Virus record (IMG/VR): IMGVR_UViG_3300042563_002067
Coordinates: 1 to 64,000 of that record
Strand: one strand, 5' to 3'
DNA from: a virus
Length of the DNA stretch: 64,000 nucleotides
A program made the translations under genes and the position numbers. The notes beneath the pieces were generated by a model. That model searched no databases. It worked only from the letters and a program-made list of their open reading frames with translations, and was not told the origin of the DNA. The stretch's first letter is position 1. Every line of letters begins with the position of its first letter. This document shows positions 47,002 to 63,712 of this stretch, piece after piece.

Positions 47002-47003
47002 CA

Positions 47004-48683: not shown

Positions 48684-48716
48684 CAAAAAAAATGTTTAAC
48701 TAATAAATCAAAAGTT

Positions 48717-49455: not shown

Positions 49456-49473
49456 AAAATAGTTATATCTTTG
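49443..49473 (+). promoter_or_regulatory. Host-type promoter TTTG-N19-TATCTTTG
   Basis: TTTG 49443-49446 and TATCTTTG 49466-49473, spacing 19, partly within the end of the HNH gene. Drives the three genes from 49490. Confidence 0.75.
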
Positions 49474-49489
49474 TCAAAAATTAATAGAT

Positions 49490-49651: not shown

Positions 49652-49656
49652 AAATT

Positions 49657-49899
49657 ATGATACCAAAAAATGAAATGGTTGAAGGTTGGTATAAGGGTTT
49701 CTGTAGAAACAATTATATGGCTTTTTGGGACGGAGAGAAGTTCCAATACATCCGATATAAGTTCGGGTATCGTTTGGATACCATAGAACATTTTGAAGAT
49801 GTTAAAGAACAAAGATTAGATGGGTTTGTCCCGGTTGAGAGAATTGAAAGATTAACTCCGGAGGAACAATGGAATGAAAAAAATGAAATAGGATATTAA
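49657..49899 (+). CDS. Small hypothetical protein
   Basis: 80 residues, MIPKNEMVEGWYKGFCRNNY, aromatic and beta-rich; one base before the next gene. Function unknown. Confidence 0.6.
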   Translation: MIPKNEMVEGWYKGFCRNNYMAFWDGEKFQYIRYKFGYRLDTIEHFEDVKEQRLDGFVPVERIERLTPEEQWNEKNEIGY

Positions 49900-49900
49900 G

Positions 49901-50500
49901 ATGATAGATAATATAAAAGAAATCAAAGAATTACTGAATTTCTCGGACAAAAACGATTTCTATATGTTATACGTTTTCAAGAGAAAAAAGGACCAACCTG
50001 AGGGTGAGAGAGATAATCACCAATCGGTTAGAACAATCAAAACATATTGTATTGACAGCATTGAACATCTTGATAAGAGATACGATGAAATCAAACAATT
50101 ATGTGAGATGTTCAAGGCAAGAGCTTACATTCACGTTCAGAAACAAAACCATATGGATGTTTCTTTGGAAATGATGATGTCGTTAGCTGAGAGAATTAAA
50201 AATGGTGTGAAAAACCAAAAGGGTTTATTTGATTCCGTTGTGGGTCAAATCAAAACACAAGAAAAAAGATGGATTGTAGATATTGATACAACTGACCCTG
50301 ATTTTTTATATGAAGTTGCGGATTTTATTAAAGACCTTAAACCAGTTGGTTTTAAAGTTGAAAAAGTAATACCTACCAAAAATGGTAGACATTTAATCAC
50401 ATCTCGATTCGATGTTAAAACATTTAGTGAAAAATACCCGGATGTTGATATTCAAAAGAAAAATCCAACATTATTGTATTATCCAAATAGTTTAGATTAA
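49901..50500 (+). CDS. Conserved phage protein, unknown
   Basis: 199 residues. N-terminal SVRTIKTYCIDSIEHLDKRY and a C-terminal domain with RWIVDIDTTDPDFLYEVADF and PTKNGRHLITSRFD. The DID and KNGRH elements recall nucleotidyl-transfer or archaeo-eukaryotic primase-type folds, but the motif set is incomplete. Its stop lies within the 5' strand of the closing helix of the RNA at 50499. Confidence 0.6.
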   Translation: MIDNIKEIKELLNFSDKNDFYMLYVFKRKKDQPEGERDNHQSVRTIKTYCIDSIEHLDKRYDEIKQLCEMFKARAYIHVQKQNHMDVSLEMMMSLAERIKNGVKNQKGLFDSVVGQIKTQEKRWIVDIDTTDPDFLYEVADFIKDLKPVGFKVEKVIPTKNGRHLITSRFDVKTFSEKYPDVDIQKKNPTLLYYPNSLD

Positions 50501-50679
50501 ACAACACATAGAAAAACGGACAATAGAGGCGTAAATTGGTTAGTCCACGCCCCGATATAGCATTAGCCTATATTGTGACGACTCTAAACACCCCAAGAAG
50601 TGTTATGTTTTGTTGAGTAAGGTAAGAGAAGGTTGAAAGTCCAAAACATACTTATCCCAACTTGGTGGATGTGTTGTTT
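50499..50679 (+). ncRNA. Structured RNA, family 1 copy 1
   Basis: AAACAACACAT (50499-50509) pairs with ATGTGTTGTTT (50669-50679), 11 bp. Shares CATAGAAA, the AACAC-loop-GTGTT hairpin, GTGTTATGTTT-GTTGAGTAAG and TTATCCC...GGATGTGT with the copy at 53945. A hairpin GATATAGCATTAGCCTATAT lies in the first half. Confidence 0.65.
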
Positions 50680-50688
50680 TTATTAAAT

Positions 50689-50758
50689 GGTCTTGTTGGT
50701 CGTGGCGACCGGTTAGTCTGCAAAACTAACAGAGTGAGTTCGATTCTCACCGAGACCT
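50689..50758 (+). tRNA. tRNA-Cys(GCA)
   Basis: Acceptor GGTCTTG / CGAGACC, D-stem GGTC / GACC with a very short loop, anticodon loop CTGCAAA, T-loop TTCGATT. Confidence 0.9.
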
Positions 50759-50760
50759 CA

Positions 50761-50916
50761 AATAACATAATTGTTTAACCACGAAAATGGGCTTGAACAA
50801 CCGAATGGAAGACGCGTTTCTTACTAGGGAGTAAAATAGAAAATTAGATTCGGAGGCATCCGGGTTGTGTGAAAAAGTAGGGAGCTCCCGGCAGGGACTA
50901 AAATAATTGTGTTATT
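50761..50916 (+). ncRNA. Structured spacer RNA closed by a 12-bp helix
   Basis: AATAACATAATT (50761-50772) pairs with AATTGTGTTATT (50905-50916), one T-G. Inside: GGAGCTCC and a CGGAGGCATCCG hairpin. 156 bases between tRNA-Cys and tRNA-Trp. Confidence 0.58.
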
Positions 50917-50920
50917 ATAT

Positions 50921-50992
50921 ACGTCATTGGTGAAATGGTTATCATTTTAGTCTCCAAAACTAAAGTTTCAGATTCGAGTTCTGAATGGCGTG
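50921..50992 (+). tRNA. tRNA-Trp(CCA)
   Basis: Acceptor ACGTCAT / ATGGCGT, anticodon stem TTAGT / ACTAA with loop CTCCAAA, T-arm TCAGA TTCGAGT TCTGA. Confidence 0.9.
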
Positions 50993-51065
50993 CAAGAAGA
51001 CGGAGAGTGAGTCAAGGGTAATTCCGTTATGGTTATCCCTCGAGGGTCTCTCCTGAAGAAATATG

Positions 51066-51138
51066 GATTTTGAAGTACAATTGGACGTGCGACCGGTGTA
51101 AGACCGGGAGGATATAGGTTCGAATCCTATCATTATCC
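51066..51138 (+). tRNA. tRNA-like gene, anticodon unresolved
   Basis: D-stem GTAC / GTGC, T-arm ATAGG TTCGAAT CCTAT and acceptor GATTTTG / CATTATC (two mismatches) are visible. The anticodon arm CCGG-TGTAAGA-CCGG has G where T33 should be, so TAA (Leu) is only nominal. Body is not Leu-type. May be inactive or specialised. Confidence 0.55.
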
Positions 51139-51142
51139 CAAG

Positions 51143-51294
51143 AAACAGACCTATAACTTACGTCAGTGGTAGTGTAGGGGTGAGGTTCGGAGTAATCAAC
51201 CAAACCAAGAAACCGCCGAGGGTAAACACGAGTATGATGCTTGTCTAGTCCCCTAAGACTGAAATATCGGAGAATCCTCATTGTCTGTTTTTTT
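51143..51294 (+). ncRNA. Structured RNA with its own terminator
   Basis: AAACAGAC (51143-51150) pairs with GTCTGTTT (51283-51290), followed by TTTT. Inside, TCAGT/ACTGA and TAGGGG/CCCCTA stack, and TGAGG (51181-51185) can pair with CCTCA (51276-51280), which would make a pseudoknot. Confidence 0.6.
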
Positions 51295-51302
51295 AAAATA
51301 AA

Positions 51303-51499
51303 AAGTTTAACAACCGGGGTGTCCATACTCTAAAAAATTAATGGACTAGCGTGTTGATAGGGGTGACCTCCCAATAGTAGCACCGTAGTAATACGGTAAA
51401 GGATAGATAAGGACTAGTACGCCGGTGACGAACACGACGAATTCCGGAATTCCCATTGTAGCCCGCTACGACCCGAGGGCGGGGTTGTTAAACTTTTTT
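51303..51499 (+). ncRNA. Structured RNA closed by a perfect 13-bp helix and terminator
   Basis: AAGTTTAACAACC (51303-51315) pairs with GGTTGTTAAACTT (51483-51495), followed by a T-tract. Inner helices: GTCCAT/ATGGAC, ACCGTA-GTAA-TACGGT, the palindrome GAATTCCGGAATTC, and CCCGC/GGCGGG. Ends just before the NTase gene promoter motif. Confidence 0.68.
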
Positions 51500-51504
51500 C
51501 TTTA

Positions 51505-51511
51505 TATTTAT
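51505..51511 (+). promoter_or_regulatory. Phage promoter motif TATTTAT
   Basis: Four bases before the ATG at 51516. Confidence 0.55.
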
Positions 51512-51515
51512 CAAT

Positions 51516-51860
51516 ATGAAAAACTTTAAATTTTTAATGGATAAACTCAAGGACTATAATTTAGATTCTGAGGATTATGCGGTTTTTGGTTCCGCACCAT
51601 TAGTAATCACCGGAATGATTAATGATGTTAATGACTTAGACGTAATTATACGTCCATCAAAATGGGAATTTAATGATGAAGGTGAATATAGAACCAAAGA
51701 TATTGAATTTTTCAATAATTGGCCCGAATACGATATTGATGACTTAATTGATAATCACTCATTCGTTTATAATGGGGTTCGATTCATAAATCCAAAGAAA
51801 GTTATTGAATATAAAAAATCCCTTAAAAGGAATAAAGATAAAAATATTTGGGATAATTAA
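51516..51860 (+). CDS. Nucleotidyltransferase-fold protein
   Basis: 114 residues. AVFGSAPLVITGMINDVNDL then DVII gives the GS...DxD signature of a minimal nucleotidyltransferase, and GVRFINPKKVIEYKKSL the following region. It resembles MNT/AbiEii-like or tRNA-end-modifying NTases in motif only. Located inside the tRNA array, it could act on tRNA ends or an antitoxin-like target. Confidence 0.68.
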   Translation: MKNFKFLMDKLKDYNLDSEDYAVFGSAPLVITGMINDVNDLDVIIRPSKWEFNDEGEYRTKDIEFFNNWPEYDIDDLIDNHSFVYNGVRFINPKKVIEYKKSLKRNKDKNIWDN

Positions 51861-51878
51861 AATAAATCTTACCAATAA

Positions 51879-51910
51879 TTGACTTTTTACAAAACTAACG
51901 TATATTTATT
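51879..51910 (+). promoter_or_regulatory. TTGAC plus TATATTTATT promoter
   Basis: TTGAC at 51879-51883 and TATTTATT at 51903-51910. It looks like a hybrid: a host-like upstream box with the phage motif at the -7 position. Confidence 0.5.
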
Positions 51911-51932
51911 AGAAATTACAATAACACAACAA

Positions 51933-52007
51933 ATGCAAACTTTAAACATATTACTTACGATAGCGGGAACTGAGGGTAGAGATACAACTTGGAAGCAGAT
52001 GGTATGA
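51933..52007 (+). CDS. Possible 24-residue peptide on a short transcript
   Basis: MQTLNILLTIAGTEGRDTTW. Bracketed by a promoter (51879-51910) and a terminator (52037). The coding part contains GGTAGAGATAC as in the 44.4-kb unit. May be an RNA rather than a peptide gene. Confidence 0.35.
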   Translation: MQTLNILLTIAGTEGRDTTWKQMV

Positions 52008-52036
52008 TATATATTTAAGTAAAAAAAATATTCAAA

Positions 52037-52069
52037 AATCCATCTTCAAAAAAGGTGGATTTTTTTTTG
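52037..52069 (+). terminator. Intrinsic terminator
   Basis: ATCCATC / GGTGGAT stem and a nine-T tract. Confidence 0.88.
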
Positions 52070-52077
52070 TCTTAAAG

Positions 52078-52108
52078 TTTGGTATATTGAAATAAAAGAT
52101 TATCTTTG
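52078..52108 (+). promoter_or_regulatory. Host-type promoter TTTG-N19-TATCTTTG
   Basis: TTTG 52078-52081, TATCTTTG 52101-52108. About 45 bases around it are nearly identical to the next promoter at 52257. Confidence 0.75.
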
Positions 52109-52129
52109 TAAGGAATTAAAAAACAAGAT

Positions 52130-52240
52130 ATGGACGATACAAGAGAAGAGTTGGTTATGGATTACTCACCAATATTAGGAGTAACCTACGGATTAAAAAA
52201 TGTTTTGGTTGAGGATGATTCAACAGAAAAAGAAGAATAA
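52130..52240 (+). CDS. Tiny acidic protein
   Basis: 36 residues, MDDTREELVMDYSPILGVTY, ending in a Glu-rich tail. It lies between the two duplicated promoters. Function unknown. Confidence 0.5.
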   Translation: MDDTREELVMDYSPILGVTYGLKNVLVEDDSTEKEE

Positions 52241-52256
52241 AAAAAAGATTAAAAAG

Positions 52257-52287
52257 TTTGGTATAATGAAATAAAGTATTATCTTTG
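52257..52287 (+). promoter_or_regulatory. Host-type promoter of the second tRNA sub-array (P2)
   Basis: TTTG 52257-52260, TATCTTTG 52280-52287, spacing 19. The following leader (CCATCAAAATGAAA ... GACATATTGGTAA) matches that after P1 (44690). Confidence 0.78.
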
Positions 52288-52334
52288 TACCATCAAAATG
52301 AAACAAGTTAATTGACATATTGGTAATATAAAAC

Positions 52335-52406
52335 GGCCCTATCATCTATCGGTTAGGATATTTGGTTTTCATCCAAAAAAGTCGGGTTCGACTCCCGGTG
52401 GGGCTA
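52335..52406 (+). tRNA. tRNA-Glu(TTC)
   Basis: Acceptor GGCCCTA / TGGGGCT, anticodon stem TTTGG / CCAAA with loop TTTTCAT, T-loop TTCGACT. Confidence 0.9.
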
Positions 52407-52471
52407 CAAGGGTTATGAACAACGTGTCCCCTTAATTTCACAATGTTGACAATTCGGAAAGACGAGTAAAT

Positions 52472-52541
52472 GGGTCAGATGACAACGGCAGTTCAACTGA
52501 TTTGCAATCAGATTGTTTGGGTTCGACTCCCACTGTATCCA
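52472..52541 (+). tRNA. tRNA-Ala(TGC)
   Basis: Anticodon stem CTGA / TCAG with loop TTTGCAA, T-loop TTCGACT. Acceptor GGGTCAG / TGTATCC has two mismatches at positions 5 and 6; D-arm is short. Confidence 0.78.
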
Positions 52542-52549
52542 CAAAAAAC

Positions 52550-52598
52550 AGAAAGACAGAATACGGGAAGTCACTACCCGGGAAACACGGTTCTTTCT
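52550..52598 (+). ncRNA. Spacer hairpin AGAAAGA / TCTTTCT
   Basis: 7-bp outer helix with inner CGGG...CCCG. A second hairpin TTCAATT / AATTGAA follows at 52601-52635, just before tRNA-Asp. Confidence 0.42.
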
Positions 52599-52641
52599 CC
52601 TTCAATTGTTATAGGATAGTCACCTTTGAATTGAAAATTTT

Positions 52642-52713
52642 GGTCTATTTGTCTAACGGCTAGGATGCTACCCTGTCACGGTAGAGGCGAGAGTTCGATT
52701 CTCTCATAGACCG
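52642..52713 (+). tRNA. tRNA-Asp(GTC)
   Basis: Acceptor GGTCTAT / ATAGACC, anticodon stem CTACC / GGTAG with loop CTGTCAC, T-loop TTCGATT. Confidence 0.94.
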
Positions 52714-52718
52714 CAAAA

Positions 52719-52762
52719 CTCAAGATTAATTACCTTGAGAATGGAAGGTTCGAAACTTCCGA
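52719..52762 (+). other. tRNA fragment: hairpin plus T-arm-like element
   Basis: CTCAAG / CTTGAG hairpin (52719-52739) followed by GGAAG-GTTCGAAA-CTTCC. No acceptor or anticodon arm; probably a tRNA relic. Confidence 0.35.
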
Positions 52763-52872
52763 TTGATTATAGTGTAATGGTGCACACCATCCCCCCAAAA
52801 CAGGGTTCGAGTCCCTGGAACGTGGGCTTCTCAGGGGAAGGGAGATTAAGGTTCGAATCCTTACTAATCAGC
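52763..52872 (+). other. Composite tRNA-like element
   Basis: 5' TTGATTA pairs with 3' TAATCAG, and GTGT-loop-ACAC forms a D-arm, but two T-arms follow (CAGGG TTCGAGT CCCTG at about 52800 and TAAGG TTCGAAT CCTTA at about 52848) with a CTTC/GAAG arm between. Total 110 bases. Either a tRNA with an inserted partial tRNA or a relic of two genes. Confidence 0.4.
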
Positions 52873-52876
52873 AAAT

Positions 52877-52946
52877 TGCGTTAAAGTGTAAAGGTTGCAT
52901 CTAAGTCTCATAAGCTTGGGGGGTGGTTCGAGTCCACGTTACGCTA
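52877..52946 (+). tRNA. tRNA-Met(CAT), elongator-type
   Basis: Acceptor TGCGTTA / TTACGCT with mismatches at positions 1 and 6, D-stem GTGT / GCAT, anticodon loop CTCATAA, T-loop TTCGAGT. Could also be read as tRNA-Ile2 if C34 is converted to lysidine. Confidence 0.72.
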
Positions 52947-52960
52947 CTAAGAATAAACAT

Positions 52961-53033
52961 CGTGGGATAGAGCAGTTGGCAGCTCGTGTGGCTCATAACC
53001 ATAAGGTCGGAGGTTCGAGTCCTCCTCCCGCTA
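52961..53033 (+). tRNA. Initiator tRNA-fMet(CAT)
   Basis: CGTGGGA / TCCCGCT leaves position 1-72 unpaired (C-T), the hallmark of formyl-methionine initiator tRNA. D-arm GAGCAGTTGGCAGCTC, anticodon arm TGTGG CTCATAA CCATA and T-arm GGAGG TTCGAGT CCTCC agree closely with bacterial tRNA-fMet. Confidence 0.85.
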
Positions 53034-53055
53034 CTAATTTAATAACTAAATCCGT

Positions 53056-53229
53056 ATGGCTACAGTAGCAAAAAGGTCAAGACAACAAAGAGTTCTTGAA
53101 ATGTTGGAGAAACAATTAAAAAATGGTTTAAAAACCGAAAAAGGAACACGAGATGTGAAGGTTCCATTAACTGATTCTGATAAGAAGAGAATCGTTAAAG
53201 AGATTGAGAATCTCAAAACAAAAGTATAA
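53056..53229 (+). CDS. Small basic protein
   Basis: 57 residues, MATVAKRSRQQRVLEMLEKQ, basic and helical with KKRIVKEIENLKTK. Lies between tRNA-fMet and tRNA-Gly. Could bind RNA. Function unknown. Confidence 0.58.
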   Translation: MATVAKRSRQQRVLEMLEKQLKNGLKTEKGTRDVKVPLTDSDKKRIVKEIENLKTKV

Positions 53230-53278
53230 ACTTATAAGTTTAAAATTTAAATTTATTTTCAAGGTATAAGTTTAAAAT

Positions 53279-53352
53279 GCGGGTATGGTGTTTAACGGCT
53301 AGCACGTGGGCCTTCCAAGTCTGAAGTTTCGGTTCGAATCCGAATATCCGCT
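53279..53352 (+). tRNA. tRNA-Gly(TCC)
   Basis: Acceptor GCGGGTA / TATCCGC, anticodon loop CTTCCAA with G-T-rich stem, T-loop TTCGAAT. Confidence 0.88.
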
Positions 53353-53354
53353 CA

Positions 53355-53553
53355 AAAATAGTGAAAAAGTAATTATATGAAGTAACCTTCGGGGACACTG
53401 CCGGAACCCTTTAACACATAGGTAGGTGAAAAGTATGATGAAAGACAACGGCGCACCGGTCAACCATCTGGGAGTAATTACCCATAACGGATGTGGAGAT
53501 GAAGTCACAGCTCCTTAGGACCGCAATGGTGAAAAATTTGGTCGAACTATTTT
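53355..53553 (+). ncRNA. Structured RNA closed by AAAATAGT / ACTATTTT
   Basis: 8-bp closing helix around 199 bases, followed by AATTTTT. The interior has ACCTTCGGGG, CGGCGCACCGG and many short helices. No gene on either strand is supported here. Confidence 0.55.
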
Positions 53554-53561
53554 AATTTTTA

Positions 53562-53782
53562 TATTCTGTTTGACGTTAGACAGTATGGTGCCCTGGATAT
53601 CTCGGAAACACAAGTGGGGAAGGAAGTTACTCACCACATACAGAAAACATAGATTCGTATGTCTAACGAAAGGTTAAGTGAAAAGGTCGGCATTCGTTCC
53701 AACGTTGCGACAGACTATAATAGGGGAGTGAAGGGGTTTGGGCCTTCACACTTAATTACCAATCTATGTCGGTAACAGAATA
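53562..53782 (+). ncRNA. Structured RNA closed by TATTCTGTT / AACAGAATA
   Basis: 9-bp closing helix around 221 bases, immediately after the previous RNA. A second helix CGTTAGAC / GTCTAACG lies inside, and GTGAAGG...CCTTCAC near the 3' part. No gene supported. Confidence 0.58.
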
Positions 53783-53786
53783 AATT

Positions 53787-53858
53787 GGCTCCATCGTTCA
53801 ACGGATAGGACATTTCTCTTCTAAGGAAATTATCGGGGTTCGAATCCCTGTGGAGTCA
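53787..53858 (+). tRNA. tRNA-Arg(TCT)
   Basis: Acceptor GGCTCCA / TGGAGTC, anticodon stem TTTCT / GGAAA with loop CTTCTAA, T-loop TTCGAAT. Confidence 0.92.
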
Positions 53859-53866
53859 CAACAATT

Positions 53867-53939
53867 GCCTTGGTGGTGGAACGGTAGACACGGAAGTCTT
53901 AGGAACTTCATATTGAGGGTTCGATTCCCTCCTGAGGTA
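53867..53939 (+). tRNA. tRNA-Leu(TAG)
   Basis: Acceptor GCCTTGG / CTGAGGT, D-arm of Leu type (GGTGGAACGGTAGACAC), anticodon stem GAAGT / ACTTC with loop CTTAGGA, short variable arm, T-loop TTCGATT. Confidence 0.9.
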
Positions 53940-53944
53940 CAAAA

Positions 53945-54131
53945 TTTACGCATAGAAAGACAAACAAAATACAAGCCACAACAGTTAATGCACTACAATG
54001 TATTACAACACTATCAAGAAGTGTTATGTTTGTTGAGTAAGATAAAGAAAAACCTGGACGTGAGTTAGGTATGGATTAAGGTGAGAGTCGTAACCTCCAT
54101 AGAATTATCCCCATCTTGAGGGATGTGTAAA
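53945..54131 (+). ncRNA. Structured RNA, family 1 copy 2
   Basis: TTTACGCAT (53945-53953) pairs with ATGTGTAAA (54123-54131), one G-T. Same order of conserved blocks as the copy at 50499, with compensating differences in the closing helix and in the ATCCC/GGGAT hairpin near the 3' end. Confidence 0.65.
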
Positions 54132-54229
54132 AATATACATTATCATAACTCGGTGTGATACACCGCCAACTACCTCCTTAAACAACGTGGGAACTGCGGT
54201 TCTCCCAATGTGGCCGAAGTGATGATGTA
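54132..54229 (+). ncRNA. Structured spacer segment
   Basis: TACAT...ATGATGTA can close it with bulges; GGTGTGATACACC and GGGAACTGCGGTTCTCCC hairpins lie inside. No gene. Confidence 0.35.
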
Positions 54230-54289
54230 AAAAGAAACAGAGAAAAATCTGGACAGCGAAAGCAGGATAGACCTTGGACAGTTTCTTTT
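54230..54289 (+). ncRNA. Structured spacer RNA closed by AAAAGAAAC / GTTTCTTTT
   Basis: 9-bp closing helix, interior CTGGACAGCGAAAGCAGG. A further AGAGC/GCTCT hairpin (54304-54335) precedes tRNA-Thr. Confidence 0.5.
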
Positions 54290-54342
54290 AGTAGTTTAAG
54301 AGACAGAGCTGACTTCTACTTTAAAAAAATGCTCTGCGACAG

Positions 54343-54414
54343 GCTGGTAAAACATAAATGGTGATGTGCTTGTTTTGTACACAAGATAATAGGGTTCGAT
54401 TCCTTATACCAGCT
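54343..54414 (+). tRNA. tRNA-Thr(TGT)
   Basis: Acceptor GCTGGTA / TACCAGC, anticodon stem CTTGT / ACAAG with loop TTTGTAC, T-loop TTCGATT. Confidence 0.9.
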
Positions 54415-54459
54415 CAATTTTTTTTATTGTTCGAATCTGACTTTTGACTCTTTTTGTGA

Positions 54460-54467
54460 TATTTATA
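54460..54467 (+). promoter_or_regulatory. Phage promoter motif TATTTATA
   Basis: 13 bases before the HNH gene at 54481, with TTGAC (54443-54447) upstream, as at 51879. Confidence 0.58.
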
Positions 54468-54480
54468 ATAAAGAGAAGTT

Positions 54481-55194
54481 ATGAAAAAATGGACAGAAGA
54501 AGAATTTAATTTATCAGTGAATTACATAAATAATGGGTTGACTTATGATGAAATTGCGGAATTCTTAAATAGAACTAAAAAATCGGTTAGAATAAAGTTA
54601 AATAAATTTGGTGTTTATGTTAAACCAAAAATTTATACTATTGAAAAAAAATGTATTCATTGTAATAATGATTTTATATCGTTTATTAGTGAAGAAAGAA
54701 AATATTGTTCTCAGTCGTGTTCCGCAAAAGAAAATAATAAATTATATGTTAAACGACAAAAAACCGAATTTAATGTAGAAGTTAAAAATCTGAATAAACA
54801 AATTAAAAATTGTTTGAATTGTGGGTGTGAAATTAATGATTCAACAAAAACATATTGTAATCAAATTTGTTTTCACGAAAATCGTAAAAAAAATATTTTT
54901 AATTTAATCAATAATAATGATACTACATTAAATCCAAGACAATATAAAAAATATCTTATTGAAAAATATGGTAATAAATGTATGGAATGTGGATGGGGTG
55001 AAAAAAACCCAAAAAGTAATACAATACCAATTGAGTTAGAACATATCGACGGAAATGGGTCTAACAACACATTAAGTAATTTAAAATTATTATGTCCTAA
55101 TTGTCATTCTTTAACTCCAACATATAAGGGGGCGAATAAAGGTAATGGAAGACATAATAGAAGAGAAAGATACCAAGATGGTAAAAGTTATTAA
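54481..55194 (+). CDS. HNH endonuclease with HTH and zinc fingers
   Basis: 237 residues. N-terminal HTH of the SANT-like type (WTEEEFNLSVNYINNGLTYD, NRTKKSVRIKLNKFG), two CxxC pairs (CIHCNNDF, CSQSC; CLNCGCE, CNQIC), then HNH: CMECGWGEKNPKSNT, ELEHIDGNGSNN, LLCPNCHSLT. A homing endonuclease-like gene between tRNA-Thr and the Leu-like tRNA, with its own phage promoter motif. Confidence 0.88.
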   Translation: MKKWTEEEFNLSVNYINNGLTYDEIAEFLNRTKKSVRIKLNKFGVYVKPKIYTIEKKCIHCNNDFISFISEERKYCSQSCSAKENNKLYVKRQKTEFNVEVKNLNKQIKNCLNCGCEINDSTKTYCNQICFHENRKKNIFNLINNNDTTLNPRQYKKYLIEKYGNKCMECGWGEKNPKSNTIPIELEHIDGNGSNNTLSNLKLLCPNCHSLTPTYKGANKGNGRHNRRERYQDGKSY

Positions 55195-55197
55195 AAT

Positions 55198-55277
55198 AGT
55201 TAGGTGGCGGAATTGGATAGACGCGGCCCCGTTGAGGGGTTTAACCGGAATTACAGGTTCGAGTCCTGTCCTGACTA
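55198..55277 (+). tRNA. tRNA, Leu-type body, anticodon unresolved
   Basis: Acceptor AGTTAGG / CCTGACT, Leu-type D-arm, T-arm ACAGG TTCGAGT CCTGT. The anticodon arm GGCCC-CGTTGAG-GGGTT gives nominal TTG with G at position 33; a one-base shift would give GAG (Leu) but breaks the stem. A close relative of the gene at 46830. Confidence 0.6.
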
Positions 55278-55487
55278 CAATTGAGATAGAGATACTCAAT
55301 AGATTTGGCATCGTTTCTTAAACAAAGATGTAGCTGACGCCTCAAACGGTTTTACAGAGGGGGTCTTAGGGTTAATAGGGAGCCTACCAACTCACCTCCT
55401 AGTAATGGTTGACTTTTTAAGTGGTAAGACACGTAGGGTTTTTGAATAGGAAAAACTAAGAATATCTACACCAAAATAATCTCATTG
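55278..55487 (+). ncRNA. Structured spacer RNA closed by CAATTGAGAT / ATCTCATTG
   Basis: 9 bp with one bulged base, 210 bases. The 5' part can alternatively form ATTGAG / CTCAAT, a possible conformational switch. Confidence 0.45.
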
Positions 55488-55497
55488 GTGGAAAAAT

Positions 55498-55570
55498 GTC
55501 CTCGTGGTGAAACGGTAAACACAACGGTTTTAAGCATCGTAAGCTGTAGGTTCGACTCCTACCGGGGATA
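55498..55570 (+). tRNA. tRNA-Leu(TAA)
   Basis: Acceptor GTCCTCG / CGGGGAT, Leu-type D-arm, anticodon stem ACGGT / ATCGT with loop TTTAAGC, T-arm GTAGG TTCGACT CCTAC. Confidence 0.88.
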
Positions 55571-55636
55571 CTAATATTTAATATTATGAAAAACAACCAA
55601 CCCAACTCCACTTAGTTTTAGCTATTAGCTAAAATT

Positions 55637-55867
55637 ATGACTCAGAAATTGAGAATTTGGAGAGTAGTACCCGTTAGTAACGGTGTTCAGGCTCCCACTT
55701 TTTTCGTAGAAACTACGGAAGAAGGACGTGAGAAGGCAGAGGAATCTGCGATTAAACAAGCACGAATTAAATCGGGCTTAGGAAAGTTCAAACAATGGAA
55801 CTTTAGATTGGAGAAACTCTCTGTGAGGGTTGATAAATTTGGTAGGTATGTGAAACACCACCAATAA
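55637..55867 (+). CDS. Small basic protein
   Basis: 76 residues, MTQKLRIWRVVPVSNGVQAP, strand-helix-strand with EEGREKAEESAIKQARIKSG and a Gly/Lys-rich end. An 8-bp hairpin TTTTAGCT / AGCTAAAA ends 2 bases before the ATG and could mask its ribosome site. Resembles small RNA-binding phage proteins. Function unknown. Confidence 0.58.
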   Translation: MTQKLRIWRVVPVSNGVQAPTFFVETTEEGREKAEESAIKQARIKSGLGKFKQWNFRLEKLSVRVDKFGRYVKHHQ

Positions 55868-55906
55868 GTTGACATATGTTTGTGGGTTCATTAAAAACCC
55901 ATAATT

Positions 55907-55978
55907 GGTCTCGTAGCTCAAAGGTGGAGCAGTTCGCTCATAACGAAAAGGATGGGATATCGTGATTCCCCGAGACCA
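55907..55978 (+). tRNA. tRNA(CAT), Met or Ile2, with unusual T-arm
   Basis: Acceptor GGTCTCG / CGAGACC perfect, anticodon loop CTCATAA. T-loop ATCGTGA and T53-T61 mismatch as in tRNA-Asn copy 2. Third CAT tRNA of the array; lysidine-modified Ile2 is possible. Confidence 0.75.
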
Positions 55979-56090
55979 CAGCGGATATTTGAGTGTAAGC
56001 AAGTACAATATCTATCGTTAGACCCTTACAGGTGATGAACGGTGGTCTTAGGGTCATTCCTAAGTGTAGATACCAGTTAACTCTACATAG

Positions 56091-56119
56091 AACCTTCAAG
56101 GAAACTTGGGGGTTTTTTA
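56091..56119 (+). terminator. Terminator of the tRNA array
   Basis: AACCTTCAAG-GAAA-CTTGGGGGTT with GNRA-like loop and T-tract. Confidence 0.92.
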
Positions 56120-57195: not shown

Positions 57196-59010
57196 TTATG
57201 GTGTTGTTGGTGTTGGGGTTGGTGTTTCAGTATTAGTAGGTGTTGGAGTTTGAGTTGGAGTCTCGGTAGGTGTTGGTGTTTGCGTCGGAGTCTCAGTTGG
57301 TGTTGGGGTTGGGGTTGGGGTTGGACATCCATTAGGGTCGGATGATGTAATTTGTCCAAGTCCTCCCGTAATGTTATACCAGGCAGTTCCGTTAGAATAG
57401 TAACCATCAGGAGCAGGAGTTATTAATGATGTGTCAATGTATATATATTCATTAAGATTCGGTCCAATTCCACCTGCAACAGGTGCGTAAACATTAATTG
57501 GTGAACCAACATTAGTACAAGCATCAATTGATGTTGCTCCGGTTCCTAAACTATATGTGTAATAACCAAATGTTGCTGTTGGTGTCATTGAAGGTGTTGG
57601 AGTTATTGTCGTTGTAGGTGTTGGTGTGATAGTAGGTGTTGGTGTTGGAATTATTGAACATAATGTAAATGGTGATATAGCAAATCCTGTGTTATCTAAT
57701 TCAACTTCTTGTCCTAAATACGCGTAATATCCTGACATATCAATAGTTGATGGTCCATATACATCATTAAAGAATTCAGTATTCATATCGAAAGTACTAT
57801 TTTCTCCATAAATAACTATTGGTGTACCGGTAGAACATACTGAATAAATACTAGTGTCAAATAATACATTAAATAAAGTTCTTGTTACAACGGTAGGTGT
57901 TGGTGTTTGAGTTGGAGTTTCAGTTTGAGTTGGTGTTTGAGTTGGTGTTGGTGTTTGAGTTGGAGTTTCAGTTTGAGTTGGAGTTGGTGTTTGCGTCGGA
58001 GTCTCGGTTGGTGTTGATGTTTGAGTTGGTGTTGGTGTCGGAATATTGTATGTGAAAATATTTGACGTTGTAGGTCCACCATTAATACATTCTTGAGTTA
58101 TTCTAAAATAAATAATATTTGTTGGGTCTATACCAATATCAAATGGTTCCGGTGTTGAACACTGACCAACTATTGGAACCCAAGTTATAAGGTCTAAAGA
58201 GTATGATAAGAATGCTTGAACACAATTAGGTTCTAAATTTACAAAGTTATATTCCCAAGTTGTGCCAGCACTATATGTTACGCTAAGTAATTCTATTCCA
58301 CATAATGGGAATGTTGGTGTTGGAGTCAATGTCATCGTATTTGTTGGTGTCATTGTAGGTGTTGGAGTTGGTGTTGGGATATTATTTTGAATCTCATTTG
58401 AGGTTGTTGGTCCACCAACAATTGATTCTTGTGTTATTCTAAAGATAACACTGTCGTATAATTCTATACCCACATCCCAAGTTGTTGGAGACGTAACACA
58501 TCCAATGATATTTGTTACCCAATTAAAACCACCATCAAGCGAGTATTCTAAGTATAAATTAGAACAATTACTATCAATGTTTATAAAAGTGTATTCCCAA
58601 TTATATGCTGATGTATTAACAACACTTGATAATATTATACCATTTAATGGGAATGTTGGAGTTGGAGTTGGAGTCTCAGTTTGCGTCGGAGTCTGTGTTG
58701 GAGTCTCAGTTTGCGTCGGAGTCTGTGTTGGAGTCATTGTAGGTGTTTGAGTTGGTGTTTGACTAGGTGTTTGAGACGGAAGTATTGGTGAGTGAGTAGG
58801 TGGAAAATCCAATACCTCAATAATATCAACACAAGAAGCTGTCCCTTGATTATTTAAAAATCTTAATGTTCCATCAAAAGCCCAAATATTTTTAACTTGA
58901 CCAGGAGATAATGAAACTTGGTATTGCCACATACTATCTGACAATGTTTTGTAGTTGAAAAATATTGTGCTTTGACAAATATTTTTTAAAATGTATTTTT
59001 TTCCTATCAT
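57196..59010 (-). CDS. Repeat-rich adhesin or fibre protein with T/P/Q/E linkers
   Basis: 604 residues. An N-terminal about 90-residue head domain is followed by linkers made of alternating Thr with Pro, Gln or Glu (TPTQTPTQTETPTQTPT type). These separate two homologous beta domains of about 85 residues (NWEYTFINIDSNCS..., TWEYNFVNLEPNCV..., each with RITQE-x-I-x-GGPTTSN) and then two further Cys-containing domains that share a C-x-x-x-GSPIxVY pattern. The linkers resemble mucin-like stalks. No signal peptide, so it is likely a virion fibre rather than an exported protein. Driven by its own phage promoter motif. Confidence 0.75.
   Translation of the reverse strand: MIGKKYILKNICQSTIFFNYKTLSDSMWQYQVSLSPGQVKNIWAFDGTLRFLNNQGTASCVDIIEVLDFPPTHSPILPSQTPSQTPTQTPTMTPTQTPTQTETPTQTPTQTETPTPTPTFPLNGIILSSVVNTSAYNWEYTFINIDSNCSNLYLEYSLDGGFNWVTNIIGCVTSPTTWDVGIELYDSVIFRITQESIVGGPTTSNEIQNNIPTPTPTPTMTPTNTMTLTPTPTFPLCGIELLSVTYSAGTTWEYNFVNLEPNCVQAFLSYSLDLITWVPIVGQCSTPEPFDIGIDPTNIIYFRITQECINGGPTTSNIFTYNIPTPTPTQTSTPTETPTQTPTPTQTETPTQTPTPTQTPTQTETPTQTPTPTVVTRTLFNVLFDTSIYSVCSTGTPIVIYGENSTFDMNTEFFNDVYGPSTIDMSGYYAYLGQEVELDNTGFAISPFTLCSIIPTPTPTITPTPTTTITPTPSMTPTATFGYYTYSLGTGATSIDACTNVGSPINVYAPVAGGIGPNLNEYIYIDTSLITPAPDGYYSNGTAWYNITGGLGQITSSDPNGCPTPTPTPTPTETPTQTPTPTETPTQTPTPTNTETPTPTPTTP
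57200..58800. repeat. Coding Thr-Pro/Gln/Glu repeat tracts
   Basis: Blocks at about 57200-57330, 57580-57650, 57890-58050, 58310-58380 and 58660-58790 consist of degenerate 6-base units (GTTGGT / GTTGGA / GTTTGA). They encode the linkers of the fibre protein; strong G/T bias on the plus strand. Confidence 0.8.
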
Positions 59011-59105: not shown

Positions 59106-59564
59106 ATGAAAAGAATTTATTTAGATGACGTAAGAACCCCAACCGGAGATAATTGGATAGTGGTGAGAAATTACGATGAATTTGTTAGTAAAGTTAGTGA
59201 GATTGGTTTAGGAAATATTGATATAATTTCCTTGGACCACGATTTGGGTGATACGGCAATGAAAGAATATTTCAATAACGTTTCACCAAATTATACTTTG
59301 GATTATAACAATATTGACGAAAAAACCGGATACGATGCTGCTAAGTTTTTAGTTGCATTATTTCACAACACAAATGAAGGTAGATTCAATATGAGTAGAA
59401 GTGAAAGAAAAAGAGATAGGTTTGTTTTTCCAATTGTATATGTTCATTCTGCAAACCCAATCGGGAGTGCGAACATTATGGGTTATTTGAACAACTTTTA
59501 TATGAACGAGGGTCAAGCTCAAACTTGTGTTAGAGTTAAAATTCCTCACGATACAATTGACTAA
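59106..59564 (+). CDS. Cyclic-phosphate-processing receiver-like protein (cREC)
   Basis: About 152 residues. IYLDDVRTPTGDNWIVVRNY and IDIISLDHDLGDTAMKEY match the cREC signature (LDD-x-R-x-P and SLDHDLG), a receiver-like domain predicted to process cyclic phosphate ends or handle such nucleotides. Start taken at 59106 because the -7 box makes the earlier Met (59076) untranscribed. It leads the operon that also has a phosphoesterase, kinase and RNA ligase. Confidence 0.8.
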   Translation: MKRIYLDDVRTPTGDNWIVVRNYDEFVSKVSEIGLGNIDIISLDHDLGDTAMKEYFNNVSPNYTLDYNNIDEKTGYDAAKFLVALFHNTNEGRFNMSRSERKRDRFVFPIVYVHSANPIGSANIMGYLNNFYMNEGQAQTCVRVKIPHDTID

Positions 59565-59567
59565 ATT

Positions 59568-60086
59568 ATGAATATATTTTTCTTGGATGAGAATCCGACA
59601 TTGTCGGCACAATACCACGTAGATAAACACGTAGTTAAAATGATTTTGGAAACGGCTCAGTTATTATGTTCGGTTCATCACGTAACCGACCAACTACCGA
59701 CCAACTACCGTAGGAGTACCGTAGAAGTACCCTACAAGTTGTCACATAAAAATCACCCTTGTGCGGTGTGGGCTCGTCAGAGTTTATCGAATTACTTATA
59801 CTTGTGTGAATTGGGGTTGGAGTTAGGAAAAGAATATACTCATAGGTATGGTAAAAGACATAAATCGATTGATGTTATTGAATGGTGTATTGTGAATAAA
59901 CCAAACATTCCGGATATTGATTTTACTACTCCGGCGATGGCGATGCCGGATGAATATAAAACGGATTCTGTTGTGGAATCTTACAGGAATTATTATATTG
60001 GTGCGAAAATTAGTTTGGCATCTTGGAAAAACAGAGAAAAACCATTTTGGTTTGGAAAAAAAGAATTAGATTTGCAATATGATTAA
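59568..60086 (+). CDS. Conserved phage protein (KHVVKMxLExAQLL type)
   Basis: 172 residues. FFLDENPTLSAQYHVDKHVV, KMILETAQLLCSVHHV, HKNHPCAVWARQSLSNYLYL and EYTHRYGKRHKSIDVIEWCI are conserved in a widespread phage family, sometimes labelled pyrimidine-dimer DNA glycosylase-like by automated annotation; its activity is uncertain. His and Lys clustering suggests a nucleic acid enzyme. Overlaps the phosphoesterase gene by 8 bases. Confidence 0.7.
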   Translation: MNIFFLDENPTLSAQYHVDKHVVKMILETAQLLCSVHHVTDQLPTNYRRSTVEVPYKLSHKNHPCAVWARQSLSNYLYLCELGLELGKEYTHRYGKRHKSIDVIEWCIVNKPNIPDIDFTTPAMAMPDEYKTDSVVESYRNYYIGAKISLASWKNREKPFWFGKKELDLQYD

Positions 60087-60741
60087 AATAGAAAAAAATA
60101 GAAAAGTTTTTGTTACGTCCGACACACATTACGGACACAAAAACATTTGCCGTGGAGTAACGGCTTGGAGATTACCGGATGGTAGTGTCCCGATAGACCA
60201 AACGAGAGATTTTGAAACCATAGAACAAATGAATGAGGTAATCATCAGTGGAATCAATAGTGTTGTTGGTGAAGATGATGTGTTGATTCACTTGGGTGAT
60301 TGGTCCTTTGGTGGGTTTGAAAACATTCAAAAGTTCAGAGATAGAATTATATGTAAAGAGATTCACCTTATATTAGGTAACCACGACCACCACATTCAAA
60401 ACAACAGAGGTGATTGTCAGGAGTTATTTGCAAGTGTTTCTCGTTCAACGACGATGAGTTACAAATTCAAAACATTTGAATTGTTTCACTACCCGATTGC
60501 ATCTTGGGAAAACTTAAATAGAGGTGTTATTCACCTTCACGGACACGTTCACTTACCAACAAACTTAAGATTTGGTAAAGGTAAAAAAATGGATGTTGGT
60601 ATTGACGGTCACCCAACGTTTGGTGTGTACGATATGGACGATATCGTAAGAATGATGGATAAACGTGAGATTGTGTCAGATATGTTATTTGACCACCACA
60701 CGGATGAGGTTGAAACTGAAGACGGAAAAAAAAGAAAGTAA
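60079..60741 (+). CDS. Metallophosphoesterase
   Basis: 220 residues. VFVTSDTHYGHKNI, VLIHLGDWSFGG, LILGNHDHHIQ, ELFHYPIASW and IHLHGHVHLPTN are the five calcineurin-like motifs. The spacing fits small phage phosphoesterases. In this operon a role on RNA 2',3'-cyclic or 3' phosphates before ligation is plausible. Confidence 0.9.
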   Translation: MIKIEKNRKVFVTSDTHYGHKNICRGVTAWRLPDGSVPIDQTRDFETIEQMNEVIISGINSVVGEDDVLIHLGDWSFGGFENIQKFRDRIICKEIHLILGNHDHHIQNNRGDCQELFASVSRSTTMSYKFKTFELFHYPIASWENLNRGVIHLHGHVHLPTNLRFGKGKKMDVGIDGHPTFGVYDMDDIVRMMDKREIVSDMLFDHHTDEVETEDGKKRK

Positions 60742-60742
60742 T

Positions 60743-61033
60743 ATGAGAGTTAAACAAACAAAAAAAGATTTATTCGTATGTTCTTGTCATAGTACAGAAC
60801 ATCAAATGGTTGTGTTATACGCTGAAGATGAAATTAACGGTATGACATATCCAATGGTTTACATTCATACACATCTTAATAAAAGACCATTTTGGCAAAG
60901 AGTTGGTTATGGGTTAAAATATATTTTTGGTTATCAATCAAGATACGGGGCTTTTGATGAGTTTATTGTAAATTCGGATGATGTTGAAGGTATTGAAAAA
61001 ATTGTTAAACATCTAAAAGAATGTGAAGTATAA
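60743..61033 (+). CDS. Hypothetical protein
   Basis: 96 residues from ATG at 60743 (MRVKQTKKDLFVCSCHSTEH). Start chosen directly after the preceding stop. Contains CSCHS near the N-terminus and a basic aromatic middle (RPFWQRVGYGLKYIFGYQSR). Found beside similar genes in many phages; role unknown. Confidence 0.62.
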   Translation: MRVKQTKKDLFVCSCHSTEHQMVVLYAEDEINGMTYPMVYIHTHLNKRPFWQRVGYGLKYIFGYQSRYGAFDEFIVNSDDVEGIEKIVKHLKECEV

Positions 61034-61239
61034 TGAAATATTTAATATTAATTTTGATTGTGTTTATTCTATCATCTTGTAGTGTTGAACAGAGAATAAA
61101 AGACCATTCTTACACTAATGAATGGTATTATATTGATACTATGAGGTTTCAAGTATATAAAACAAAATCAGGTAAAAAATACATTATTGTGTTAAATGAA
61201 AAACAAACAAAATTTAAAAGACAGTATATTAAGTTATGA
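61033..61239 (+). CDS. Small lipoprotein
   Basis: 68 residues with signal ending FILSSC (lipobox Cys about 16) and a short basic mature part. An unusual member of an otherwise cytoplasmic operon; ATG overlaps the preceding stop and the kinase start. Confidence 0.62.
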   Translation: MKYLILILIVFILSSCSVEQRIKDHSYTNEWYYIDTMRFQVYKTKSGKKYIIVLNEKQTKFKRQYIKL

Positions 61240-61631
61240 AAGAGTTATTTTTATTGAGGGGATTACCCGGGAGTGGTAAATCAACATTGGCAAAAATGTT
61301 AGTTGGTGATAAAGATTATTGCCATAAAGAGGCGGATATGTATTTTGTCGATGGGGATGGTAACTATAAGTTTGATGTTACATCATTGAGAGATGCTCAC
61401 GCTTGGTGTCAAGAAGAGGTTGAGTTTCTTATGAAATACGAACATAAAGTTGTGGTATCAAATACATTCACCCAAGAGTGGGAAATGTTACCTTATTATG
61501 ACTTGGCTAAAAAATACGGATATAGAGTTCATTCACTTATTGTAGAAAATAGACACGGAGGAGTTAATGAACACGGAGTTCCGGAAGATAAATTGGAAAT
61601 AATGAAAAATCGTTTTGAGGTAAAACTTTAA
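61236..61631 (+). CDS. P-loop kinase (polynucleotide-kinase-like)
   Basis: 131 residues. Walker A is LLRGLPGSGKSTLAKML; KEADMYFVDGDGNYKFDVTS and LRDAHAWCQEEVEFLM are features of the AAA/PNK-type kinases fused or adjacent to RNA repair enzymes. It would phosphorylate 5'-OH RNA or DNA ends. Substrate cannot be told by sequence alone, but the Rnl1-like ligase lies 1 kb downstream. Confidence 0.82.
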   Translation: MKELFLLRGLPGSGKSTLAKMLVGDKDYCHKEADMYFVDGDGNYKFDVTSLRDAHAWCQEEVEFLMKYEHKVVVSNTFTQEWEMLPYYDLAKKYGYRVHSLIVENRHGGVNEHGVPEDKLEIMKNRFEVKL

Positions 61632-61644
61632 TTCCATATCTTTG
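61614..61644 (+). promoter_or_regulatory. Host-type promoter TTTG-N19-TATCTTTG
   Basis: TTTG 61614-61617 within the kinase gene end, TATCTTTG 61637-61644, spacing 19. Gives the downstream ligase half of the operon its own promoter. Confidence 0.75.
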
Positions 61645-61664
61645 TCCCATAAAATTATTTAATT

Positions 61665-62048
61665 ATGGAAAATATCTTTAAAGTTGCCAAATACGAAAAA
61701 ACTGAGACCGGATTCAATCGTAATGGATATGATGAGTATGTTATTACTTATGGTAAGGCGAGAAAGGTTCATTTACTTAGATTGATTATCAACGGACAAT
61801 ACACTGACCATACAATAAATCTAATTGATGGGAATAGTGGTTATAAGAAAACTATTCTCACAGCTATTAGTGATTACAAAAATGGTAGATTAAAAGGTGA
61901 CCCGACTCAGATTGTAAAGAAAACAATTACTTTTAGTGAGATAGTTCAAATTTACAGTAAACCAATTGTCAGTAATGTTAAGAATTATTTATTGGGGATT
62001 AACAAAGAAGAAAGAAGAGACACATTAACAAAATTTGAATTGATATGA
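61665..62048 (+). CDS. Hypothetical protein
   Basis: 127 residues, MENIFKVAKYEKTETGFNRN. Basic, alpha/beta. Contains NYLLGINKEERRDTLTKFEL. Function unknown; operon partner of the ligase. Confidence 0.62.
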   Translation: MENIFKVAKYEKTETGFNRNGYDEYVITYGKARKVHLLRLIINGQYTDHTINLIDGNSGYKKTILTAISDYKNGRLKGDPTQIVKKTITFSEIVQIYSKPIVSNVKNYLLGINKEERRDTLTKFELI

Positions 62049-62374
62049 GTGGAGGAGCATTTGATTACAACCAATATAAGATTGGTTACATCGCAGACCA
62101 AATAGATGAGGTTATTGTGAAGAATGGTTTAGAGAAAACACCTGAAGAATTAAAACAAGAAGGTTGGAGAGACCCTGAGTGGTATACAAAATACCCTGAA
62201 GATAAATTCCATTACCAATATCCGGATGAGGTTATTGAGAAGATGAAAGAGGCGGTTAAAGCACTTCATATCGCTCAAGAATACGCTCAACGAGTAGATT
62301 GGTTATTATCAGGTGATGATGGTGAAGAATCGTTTTTAAGTAGATTAGATGAGAATTTAAAAAAAATTGGATAA
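62045..62374 (+). CDS. SGGAFDY-type conserved phage protein
   Basis: 109 residues, MSGGAFDYNQYKIGYIADQI. The N-terminal SGGAFDY and the acidic helical remainder (YPDEVIEKMKEAVKALHIAQ, YAQRVDWLLSGDDGEESF) define a very common phage and bacterial family without known function. Confidence 0.78.
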   Translation: MSGGAFDYNQYKIGYIADQIDEVIVKNGLEKTPEELKQEGWRDPEWYTKYPEDKFHYQYPDEVIEKMKEAVKALHIAQEYAQRVDWLLSGDDGEESFLSRLDENLKKIG

Positions 62375-62378
62375 AATT

Positions 62379-62651
62379 ATGCCTGATTATCTATTAAGTA
62401 GTTTTAACCATTATTCTAAAAGATTACAAGAAAGGTTTGAAGAACAAATTACATATGAAGAATATCTAAATAAATGTGTGTTTAAGTTAACGACCCCATC
62501 TAAGAAAATTAAAAGAAAACAAAAAGGGTTAAGATATCAATTTGGTGATAGAGTTAAAGTCTATATTAGTGATGGTAAATTTGAATACCCAATAACCATC
62601 TATCGTTTGGATAGAATTAATAAAAGTAGAATTTATAAAATTTTTGAATAA
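62379..62651 (+). CDS. Hypothetical protein
   Basis: 90 residues from the ATG at 62379 (MPDYLLSSFNHYSKRLQERF); a TTG at 62367 would overlap the preceding gene. Basic, C-terminal beta-rich RVKVYISDGKFEYPITIYRL. Four bases before the ligase ATG. Function unknown. Confidence 0.6.
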   Translation: MPDYLLSSFNHYSKRLQERFEEQITYEEYLNKCVFKLTTPSKKIKRKQKGLRYQFGDRVKVYISDGKFEYPITIYRLDRINKSRIYKIFE

Positions 62652-62655
62652 AATT

Positions 62656-63681
62656 ATGTTAGAAAAACTAAACAAATATTACGAAGACGGATTACTTTAC
62701 AAACAAGTACATCCATCACTTCCATTAACCATATGGAATTATACTGAAAAAGTTCAGTACGAGAACCTGTGGGATGAGGTGACTTTGATGTGTAGAGGTT
62801 TAGTTACCGACGACACCGGAGATATAGTCGCAACTCCATTCCAAAAGTTCTTCAATATAGAAGAAGGAAAATTTGAACCAACTGAAAACTTTGAAGTATT
62901 TGAAAAAATGGACGGTTCATTGGGAATTGTATTTTGGTACCGAGGACAATGGGTGGTTGCCACTCGTGGTTCATTCACCTCTGACCAAGCAATCAAAGCG
63001 AGAGAAATCTTAAGAAAATACAATACCGACATAATGTTCAGACATCTGACTTTCTGTTTTGAAATCATCTATCCGGAGAACAGAATTGTTTTGGATTATG
63101 GAGATGATGAAAAATTGGTCCTATTGGGAACCTTTGATAAAAATGGTAAAGAGATAGATGCGGAAATGTGGTCTCAATGGGGATTTGATGTAGTTAAAAA
63201 ATACGATGGTATCAAAGATTTTAAAGAACTTAAATCTATGGTAAAAGATAACCAAGAAGGGTTTGTTGTGAAGTTCTCTAATGGGGATAGAGTCAAAGTA
63301 AAAGGTGTTGAGTATCTTCGTCTTCATAAGATAATGACTAACGTTACCACAACCGGTGTTTGGGAGTATTTAAAAAATGGTGAAGATGTTATGGAAATAT
63401 TAAAAGATGTCCCTGATGAATTCTATAACAAAATTAAATCTTATGTCCAACATTTAAAATACGGTTATTTTCAAATATCTGAGGATGCTGGTAAAAAATT
63501 TGATGGTATGATGTATGGTAAATACAATGATAAAGAACCTATAGAAGATAGAAAAGAGTTTGCTGAGTGGGTGTTAACCCAACCAAAACATATGTCAGGG
63601 ATTCTATTTAGGATGTTTGATAAAAAAGACTACTCTGAAATCATATGGAATCTAATGAGACCGGAATTCAAAAAATTGTAA
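62656..63681 (+). CDS. T4 Rnl1-like RNA ligase
   Basis: 341 residues. The nucleotidyl-lysine motif I is EKMDGSLGI (Lys about 92), with upstream RGLVTDD and FQKFFNIEEG typical of Rnl1 and downstream ATRGSF (motif Ia-like), FEIIYPENRIVLDYG (motif III), EGFVVKFSNG (motif IV) and VKVKGVEYLR (motif V). T4 Rnl1 is 374 residues and repairs tRNA cut by host nucleases with its kinase. Starts at the ATG at 62656; the TTG at 62644 is weaker. Confidence 0.9.
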   Translation: MLEKLNKYYEDGLLYKQVHPSLPLTIWNYTEKVQYENLWDEVTLMCRGLVTDDTGDIVATPFQKFFNIEEGKFEPTENFEVFEKMDGSLGIVFWYRGQWVVATRGSFTSDQAIKAREILRKYNTDIMFRHLTFCFEIIYPENRIVLDYGDDEKLVLLGTFDKNGKEIDAEMWSQWGFDVVKKYDGIKDFKELKSMVKDNQEGFVVKFSNGDRVKVKGVEYLRLHKIMTNVTTTGVWEYLKNGEDVMEILKDVPDEFYNKIKSYVQHLKYGYFQISEDAGKKFDGMMYGKYNDKEPIEDRKEFAEWVLTQPKHMSGILFRMFDKKDYSEIIWNLMRPEFKKL

Positions 63682-63712
63682 CAAAGTGAGGGTAACACCT
63701 CACTTTTTTTAT
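63682..63712 (+). terminator. Terminator of the RNA-repair operon
   Basis: AGTGAGG / CCTCACT stem with a short loop and T-tract. Confidence 0.9.

Follow-up and report, generated by a model that had tools for sequence, protein, structure and literature searches.

In the virus record IMGVR_UViG_3300042563_002067 (IMG/VR; 159,912 bp), the first 64 kb, hereafter the window, carry at positions 59106-63681 a block of ten co-directional genes on the + strand, overlapping or separated by short gaps, that appears to encode an RNA-repair system. The genes follow each other in the order cREC (cyclic-phosphate-processing receiver), a phrog_624 protein, a metallophosphoesterase (MPE), two small proteins, a polynucleotide-kinase-like protein (K), three further proteins, and an RNA ligase. 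A sequence-only reading of this DNA had placed a cREC domain, a metallophosphoesterase, a P-loop kinase-like protein and an Rnl1-type ligase in the block, and all four were found there by Pfam and PHROG matches. The genome encodes a single copy of each (tblastn). The same reading had pointed to two HAD phosphatases 35 kb away, and both genes hold up as stand-alone members of the HAD_SAK_2 (Swiss-Army-Knife) family on the + strand (24461-24961, PF18143 E=1.6e-26, 93.7 bits; 26413-26997, E=6e-20, 72.4 bits; cut-off 27.5 bits), forming a paralogue pair.

The ligase gene (62644-63681, +) encodes 345 aa from a TTG start (an ATG at 62656 is also possible) and matches both RNA_lig_T4_1 (PF09511, E=5e-19) and phrog_562 (E=5e-68). 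Its profile aligns residues 36-338 with residues 43-359 of the T4 Rnl1 chain (E=9e-31), including the C-terminal domain, the alignment becoming weaker near the end. The motif residues of T4 Rnl1 are kept in this alignment (R51, K68, K88-x-DG, E140, E205, K218, K220), with the sole exception of the motif Ia lysine, which is replaced by an arginine (R108). The nucleotidyltransferase motif reads K88-M-D-G-S, and K88, G91, E140, E205, G206, K218 and K220 are invariant among relatives. Judged by these motifs and by its C-terminal domain of the Rnl1 kind, the protein is a full-length relative of Rnl1. In several relatives (L069:8001-9946, L071:8001-9496, L072, L073, L114:8433-10027) the ligase gene is split near the PEN/RIVV codons by 0.7-0.9 kb carrying an open reading frame that resembles a GIY-YIG homing endonuclease; these inserts match no Rfam intron family at its cut-off.

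The candidate 5'-OH kinase is K (61236-61631, +), a stand-alone P-loop protein of 131 aa (PF13671 AAA_33, E=7e-12; phrog_2071, E=3e-40). A structure model from the single sequence (pLDDT 41) was discarded in favor of one based on an alignment (pLDDT 87.7). The ten best PDB fold matches of the latter are all polynucleotide kinases, headed by the kinase domain of Clostridium thermocellum Pnkp (E=7.5e-6) and followed by T4 Pnk (E=2.5e-5). The P-loop and D34 are invariant.

For healing the 3' end there are several candidates. The MPE (60079-60741, +; 220 aa; PF00149, E=6e-8; phrog_547, E=4e-46) carries the metal ligands of calcineurin-type enzymes (DxH ... GD ... GNH ... H ... GHxH), and its D15, H17, D74, N101, H102, H137, H154 and H156 are invariant in 18 sequences. 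Its nearest solved relative, the uncharacterized Aquifex protein aq_1665, was the sole match at E<=0.01 in a profile search of PDB sequences. Another, different metallophosphoesterase is encoded at 13121-13813 (PF00149, E=4e-12). The cREC protein (59106-59564, +; 152 aa, with a further in-frame start at 59076; PF20274, E=8e-19) scores 68.5 bits for the cREC_REC domain against a cut-off of 27, and residues D7, D8, D44, H45, D46, T74, G75, H114 and S115 are invariant in 18 relatives, the acidic ones forming a receiver-like site. No solved relative of cREC was found by sequence search. That such proteins hydrolyze cyclic phosphates is a prediction made in two surveys (PMC7824862, PMC9503650). The HAD_SAK_2 pair could possibly provide extra healing enzymes; the family exceeds its cut-off in 13 of 37 records and is rarely linked to the other genes, a loose association with the kit. 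The phosphatase domain typical of T4 Pnkp, HAD_PNKP (PF25109), has no match across the whole record, and RtcB, the 2H phosphoesterase (PF13563) and RlaP were not found in the genome either.

We gathered relatives of the ligase, K and cREC from IMG/VR, re-detected the four block families with profiles built from them, and collapsed the loci into 82 groups. In K neighborhoods with full flanks, and with the window's own lineage left out, 22 of 36 groups have an MPE gene at most 3 kb from K and 17 of 36 a ligase gene, with K and its neighbor on one strand in every case. This gives a binomial P below 1e-12 against a rough, assumed random expectation of 5% in a ~150-kb genome, a guide value as the groups are not fully independent. 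The neighbors come in varying orders (MPE-K-ligase, ligase-MPE-K, K-MPE, K-ligase, K-ligase-cREC, cREC-x-MPE-ligase), and the distance between them is often -11 to +30 nt. Among named phages, Vibrio phage Gary has the order ligase-K-MPE, Pseudomonas phages EM and Amme-3, Aeromonas phage phiA009 and Acinetobacter phage AbaA1 show the same linkage, and so do the V5-like Escherichia coli phage naswa and Klebsiella phage KpS8, in which the cREC gene touches the ligase gene. As the families recur as neighbors in varied orders across diverged phages, ligase, MPE, K and cREC are not a chance cluster. The sequence-only reading was correct in describing the set as split into single-domain genes, unlike in T4, yet this arrangement is not special to the present phage: a separate kinase, MPE and Rnl1 are common in others (e.g., Gary, EM, AbaA1 and V5-like coliphages). 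The family phrog_8238, named "RNA ligase" (737 positions), is matched by K, MPE (weakly, E=0.013) and ligase over three separate segments; this is a lead only, since no fusion among K, MPE, ligase and cREC occurs in the fetched loci.

The distribution of MPE and HAD_PNKP is also suggestive. Among 36 whole ligase-bearing records (26 + ten), if an MPE match counts as strong from 80 bits upward, 24 have an MPE and no HAD_PNKP above cut-off, 10 have HAD_PNKP without a strong MPE, none has both, and 2 have neither. A strong stand-alone K accompanies 22 of the 24 MPE records versus none of the 10 HAD_PNKP records, three of which contain weak, unlinked MPE matches (33-58 bits). This alternation is suggestive rather than a formal test, as part of it results from the choice of records (some by K), the 80-bit line was set after the scores had been seen, and close relatives were counted apart (seven belong to one lineage). 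Fused kinase-HAD Pnkp proteins lie beside or near the ligase in Arthrobacter, Vibrio K571 and Klebsiella PMBT1 phages, and at three loci (L140, L142, L153) a stand-alone K follows 3 bp after a lone HAD_PNKP gene (PF25109 E=3e-31 in L142). The alternation in ligase-bearing records is most simply read as the MPE taking over from the HAD domain in healing 3' ends. L191, one of the two records with neither (a contig of 121 kb that may be incomplete), combines overlapping genes for K, ligase and cREC with a lack of any match to MPE, HAD_PNKP or HAD_SAK_2, which points to cREC as the healer there. One might extend this to two interchangeable kits in large phages built around one ligase family (a fused kinase-HAD Pnkp, or K plus MPE), with a third, minimal K-ligase-cREC form (L191 and L193) in which cREC would heal the 3' end, a generalization that we hold to be tentative and rather unlikely as a whole.

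Based on the domain identities, the predicted active sites (intact apart from two substitutions in the kinase), the predicted structure of the kinase and the linkage in changing order, we propose that the block encodes a kit for RNA repair, split into separate healing and sealing enzymes and comparable to T4 Pnkp plus Rnl1, which would mend RNAs (in the most likely case tRNAs) after cleavage by host ribonucleases; we give this reading a probability of about 0.72. A host ribonuclease would cut an RNA, most likely in a tRNA anticodon loop, leaving a 2',3'-cyclic phosphate (or 3'-phosphate) and a 5'-OH end. Conversion of the 3' end to a 2',3'-OH would fall to the MPE, either alone or together with cREC and the HAD_SAK_2 pair; K would phosphorylate the 5'-OH, and the ligase would adenylylate the 5' phosphate and join the ends, so that translation could be sustained in infected cells alongside the 25 tRNAs of the phage. 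The catalytic steps, the division of labor at the 3' end, the counter-defense role and the tRNA substrate are inferred, the last from the analogy with T4, the C-terminal domain of the ligase and the tRNA-rich surroundings. In T4, Pnk and Rnl1 mend tRNA-Lys after its cleavage by PrrC (PMC3014915), and the present kit offers a candidate enzyme for every step. Of the original proposal, the healing-and-sealing kit is well supported, and its more specific part, that tRNAs cleaved by anticodon nucleases of the host are resealed, is plausible by the same analogy. Breaks with loss of a nucleotide (RloC type) would not obviously be covered, as RlaP, 2H and RtcB are missing from the genome.

Compared to known systems, the block shares with T4 Pnkp (PseT) and Rnl1 a predicted 5'-kinase, 3'-healing and Rnl1-family sealing, with a ligase homologous along both domains and a kinase of like fold, but it has no Pnkp-type HAD phosphatase, its kinase is a lone small protein, and 3' healing would be left to MPE, cREC or HAD_SAK_2. 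The Pnkp-Hen1 system of C. thermocellum combines kinase, metallophosphoesterase and ligase. Its logic is the one seen here, and no solved structure matches K in fold better than its kinase domain, whereas in the phage the genes are separate, the ligase is of the Rnl1 type, and the MPE has no sequence match to the C. thermocellum phosphatase. In the Capnocytophaga Pnkp1-Rnl-Hen1 complex, separate healing and sealing proteins repair cleaved tRNA (PMC4411300), as proposed here, but Pnkp1 is a T4Pnkp homolog with kinase and phosphatase in one protein, and Rnl resembles the ligase domain of bacterial Pnkp. Further counterparts are the modules of V5-like and Mydo phages, described in one survey as containing a T4-like ligase, cREC, a kinase, a calcineurin-like enzyme and a sirtuin (PMC9503650). 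The four families share one neighborhood there as well (checked in naswa and KpS8), in a different phage lineage and gene order, and no sirtuin match was found here among the proteins scanned (the scan was not exhaustive). The cooperation of cREC, HAD-SAK, calcineurin-like enzymes, kinases and Rnl1 in phage RNA repair has been proposed by surveys of jumbo phages and of NAD networks, which also list operons of V5-like phages that combine ligase, cREC and kinase (PMC7824862, PMC9503650). The block thus illustrates well a strategy already known, with the same toolkit in many other phages.

Several observations weigh against this interpretation. In T4, Rnl1 homologs also act as tail-fiber attachment factors. 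K lacks counterparts of Arg38 and Asp85 of T4 Pnkp, which we take to be essential acceptor-site residues, the alignment giving F37 and N76 instead. Its acceptor may therefore differ from that of T4 Pnkp, and for this reason we class K as Pnk-like and not as a T4 Pnkp. A link by sequence between the MPE and the phosphatase domain of C. thermocellum Pnkp was considered and had to be rejected, the profile search of PDB sequences returning no such match, and the MPE family also occurs in many phages where no K can be detected (1303 versus 620 records). The block also contains six genes without an assigned role, and tRNAs lie near the genes in 39 of 72 neighborhood groups, about half.

Among the alternatives, the one that fares best is a variant compatible with the repair kit, in which K, MPE and ligase alone would repair RNA and cREC would degrade a cyclic nucleotide or ADP-ribose defense signal. 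The surveys predict activity of cREC on cyclic ADP-ribose derivatives too (PMC7824862, PMC9503650), and many cREC genes are distant from ligases; as the cREC and ligase genes overlap in the K-L-cREC operons of L191 and L193 and adjoin each other in V5-like phages, we regard this variant as possible but doubtful. That there is no single pathway at all, the ligase serving tail assembly like T4 gp63, the kinase and MPE using nucleotides or DNA ends as substrates, and the genes being close together as parts of a phage accessory region, would agree with the PHROG name of phrog_562 ("RNA ligase and tail fiber protein attachment catalyst"), the breadth of the MPE family and the kinase substrate residues unlike those of T4, but it seems improbable, as the linkage survives rearrangement in many lineages and an accidental position does not explain the alternation between MPE and the Pnkp HAD domain among phages with the ligase. 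Least probable is a kit that processes the phage's own RNAs (tRNA maturation, mRNA or intron ends) instead of countering host nucleases, for despite the nearby tRNA array and the homing-type insertions in ligase genes of relatives, the intron mode of ARAGORN adds just three intron-bearing candidates, none of them tRNA-Ala, and in about half of the linked clusters the fetched stretch contains no tRNA.

The six block genes absent from the sequence-only reading are all on the + strand. The phrog_624 protein (59568-60086, E=2e-60), whose gene overlaps that of the MPE, is found between or adjoining cREC and MPE in several lineages, and could possibly be an extra member of the kit; it has a weak, below cut-off resemblance to Pyr_excise (pyrimidine-dimer glycosylase). 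The others are a small protein with a weak phrog_12660 match (60740-61033, E=4e-7), a small lipoprotein-like protein beginning MKYLILILIVFILSSCS (61033-61239), a phrog_6724 protein (62045-62374, E=8e-6), and two open frames without Pfam or PHROG family match (61665-62048, and 62367-62651, which overlaps the start of the ligase gene). A terminator-like hairpin (63683-63706, +; 9-bp stem with 4 GC pairs and a T tail) lies 2 bp past the ligase stop codon. Upstream, an array of 24 tRNA genes for 19 amino acids (44770-55979, +; ARAGORN), without a tRNA-Ala found in it, is directly followed by another such hairpin (56089-56116, +). The block had been said to lie just after this array, which is right as to position (3.1 kb apart) and does not extend to a shared unit. 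Given this hairpin and two intervening genes, one on the + strand and one convergent TPT-repeat gene on the - strand (57199-59010), array and block look like separate units, and it is plausible that the block forms a single transcription unit of its own. A consensus scan of the region gave 13 terminator-like sites versus 3.9 expected, and promoter-like sites were not enriched (38 versus 38.2 in shuffles), so that no promoter is claimed.

The virus itself is probably a large phage of a Bacteroidota host, as we infer. A search for close named relatives at the DNA level found little, the closest matches being weak and local, to the MPE gene of Flavobacterium phage immuto (74% over 142 bases) and a kinase gene of an Aeromonas phage. 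Beyond the window, the record contains a further tRNA-Pro (tgg) outside the array (G000:67554-67645), the third with that anticodon, and an SmpB homolog (G000 about 68979-69413, +; L002:8979-9413; PF01668, E=3e-48) with relatives in Prevotella Lak phages. No tmRNA was found in the phage despite this homolog; SmpB in huge phages has been reported before (PMC7162821). Within the window, other genes encode a 275-aa protein resembling the catalytic core of class II tRNA synthetases (14224-15051, PF00152, E=6.5e-13), a full-length Hsp70/DnaK (20769-22637, PF00012, E=1e-254), and a protein matching Tad6, an inhibitor of type I Thoeris, over residues 90-255 (18930-19697, -; E=8e-13), which might be a second counter-defense gene.

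The alternation of MPE plus lone kinase with a fused Pnkp may be new, as no statement of it was found in the open-licence papers searched. If the proposed repair function is correct, K and its linked MPE would represent the healing half of a widespread kit that is easy to overlook because the phosphatase domain of T4 Pnkp is missing, K being annotated as "ATPase" or "hypothetical" in most phages. Healing of 3' ends by cREC, if true, would be a new chemistry for the receiver fold, and the minimal operons would offer a clean test of the cREC prediction. Recognizing this kit would also help to predict which phages withstand tRNA-cutting defenses.

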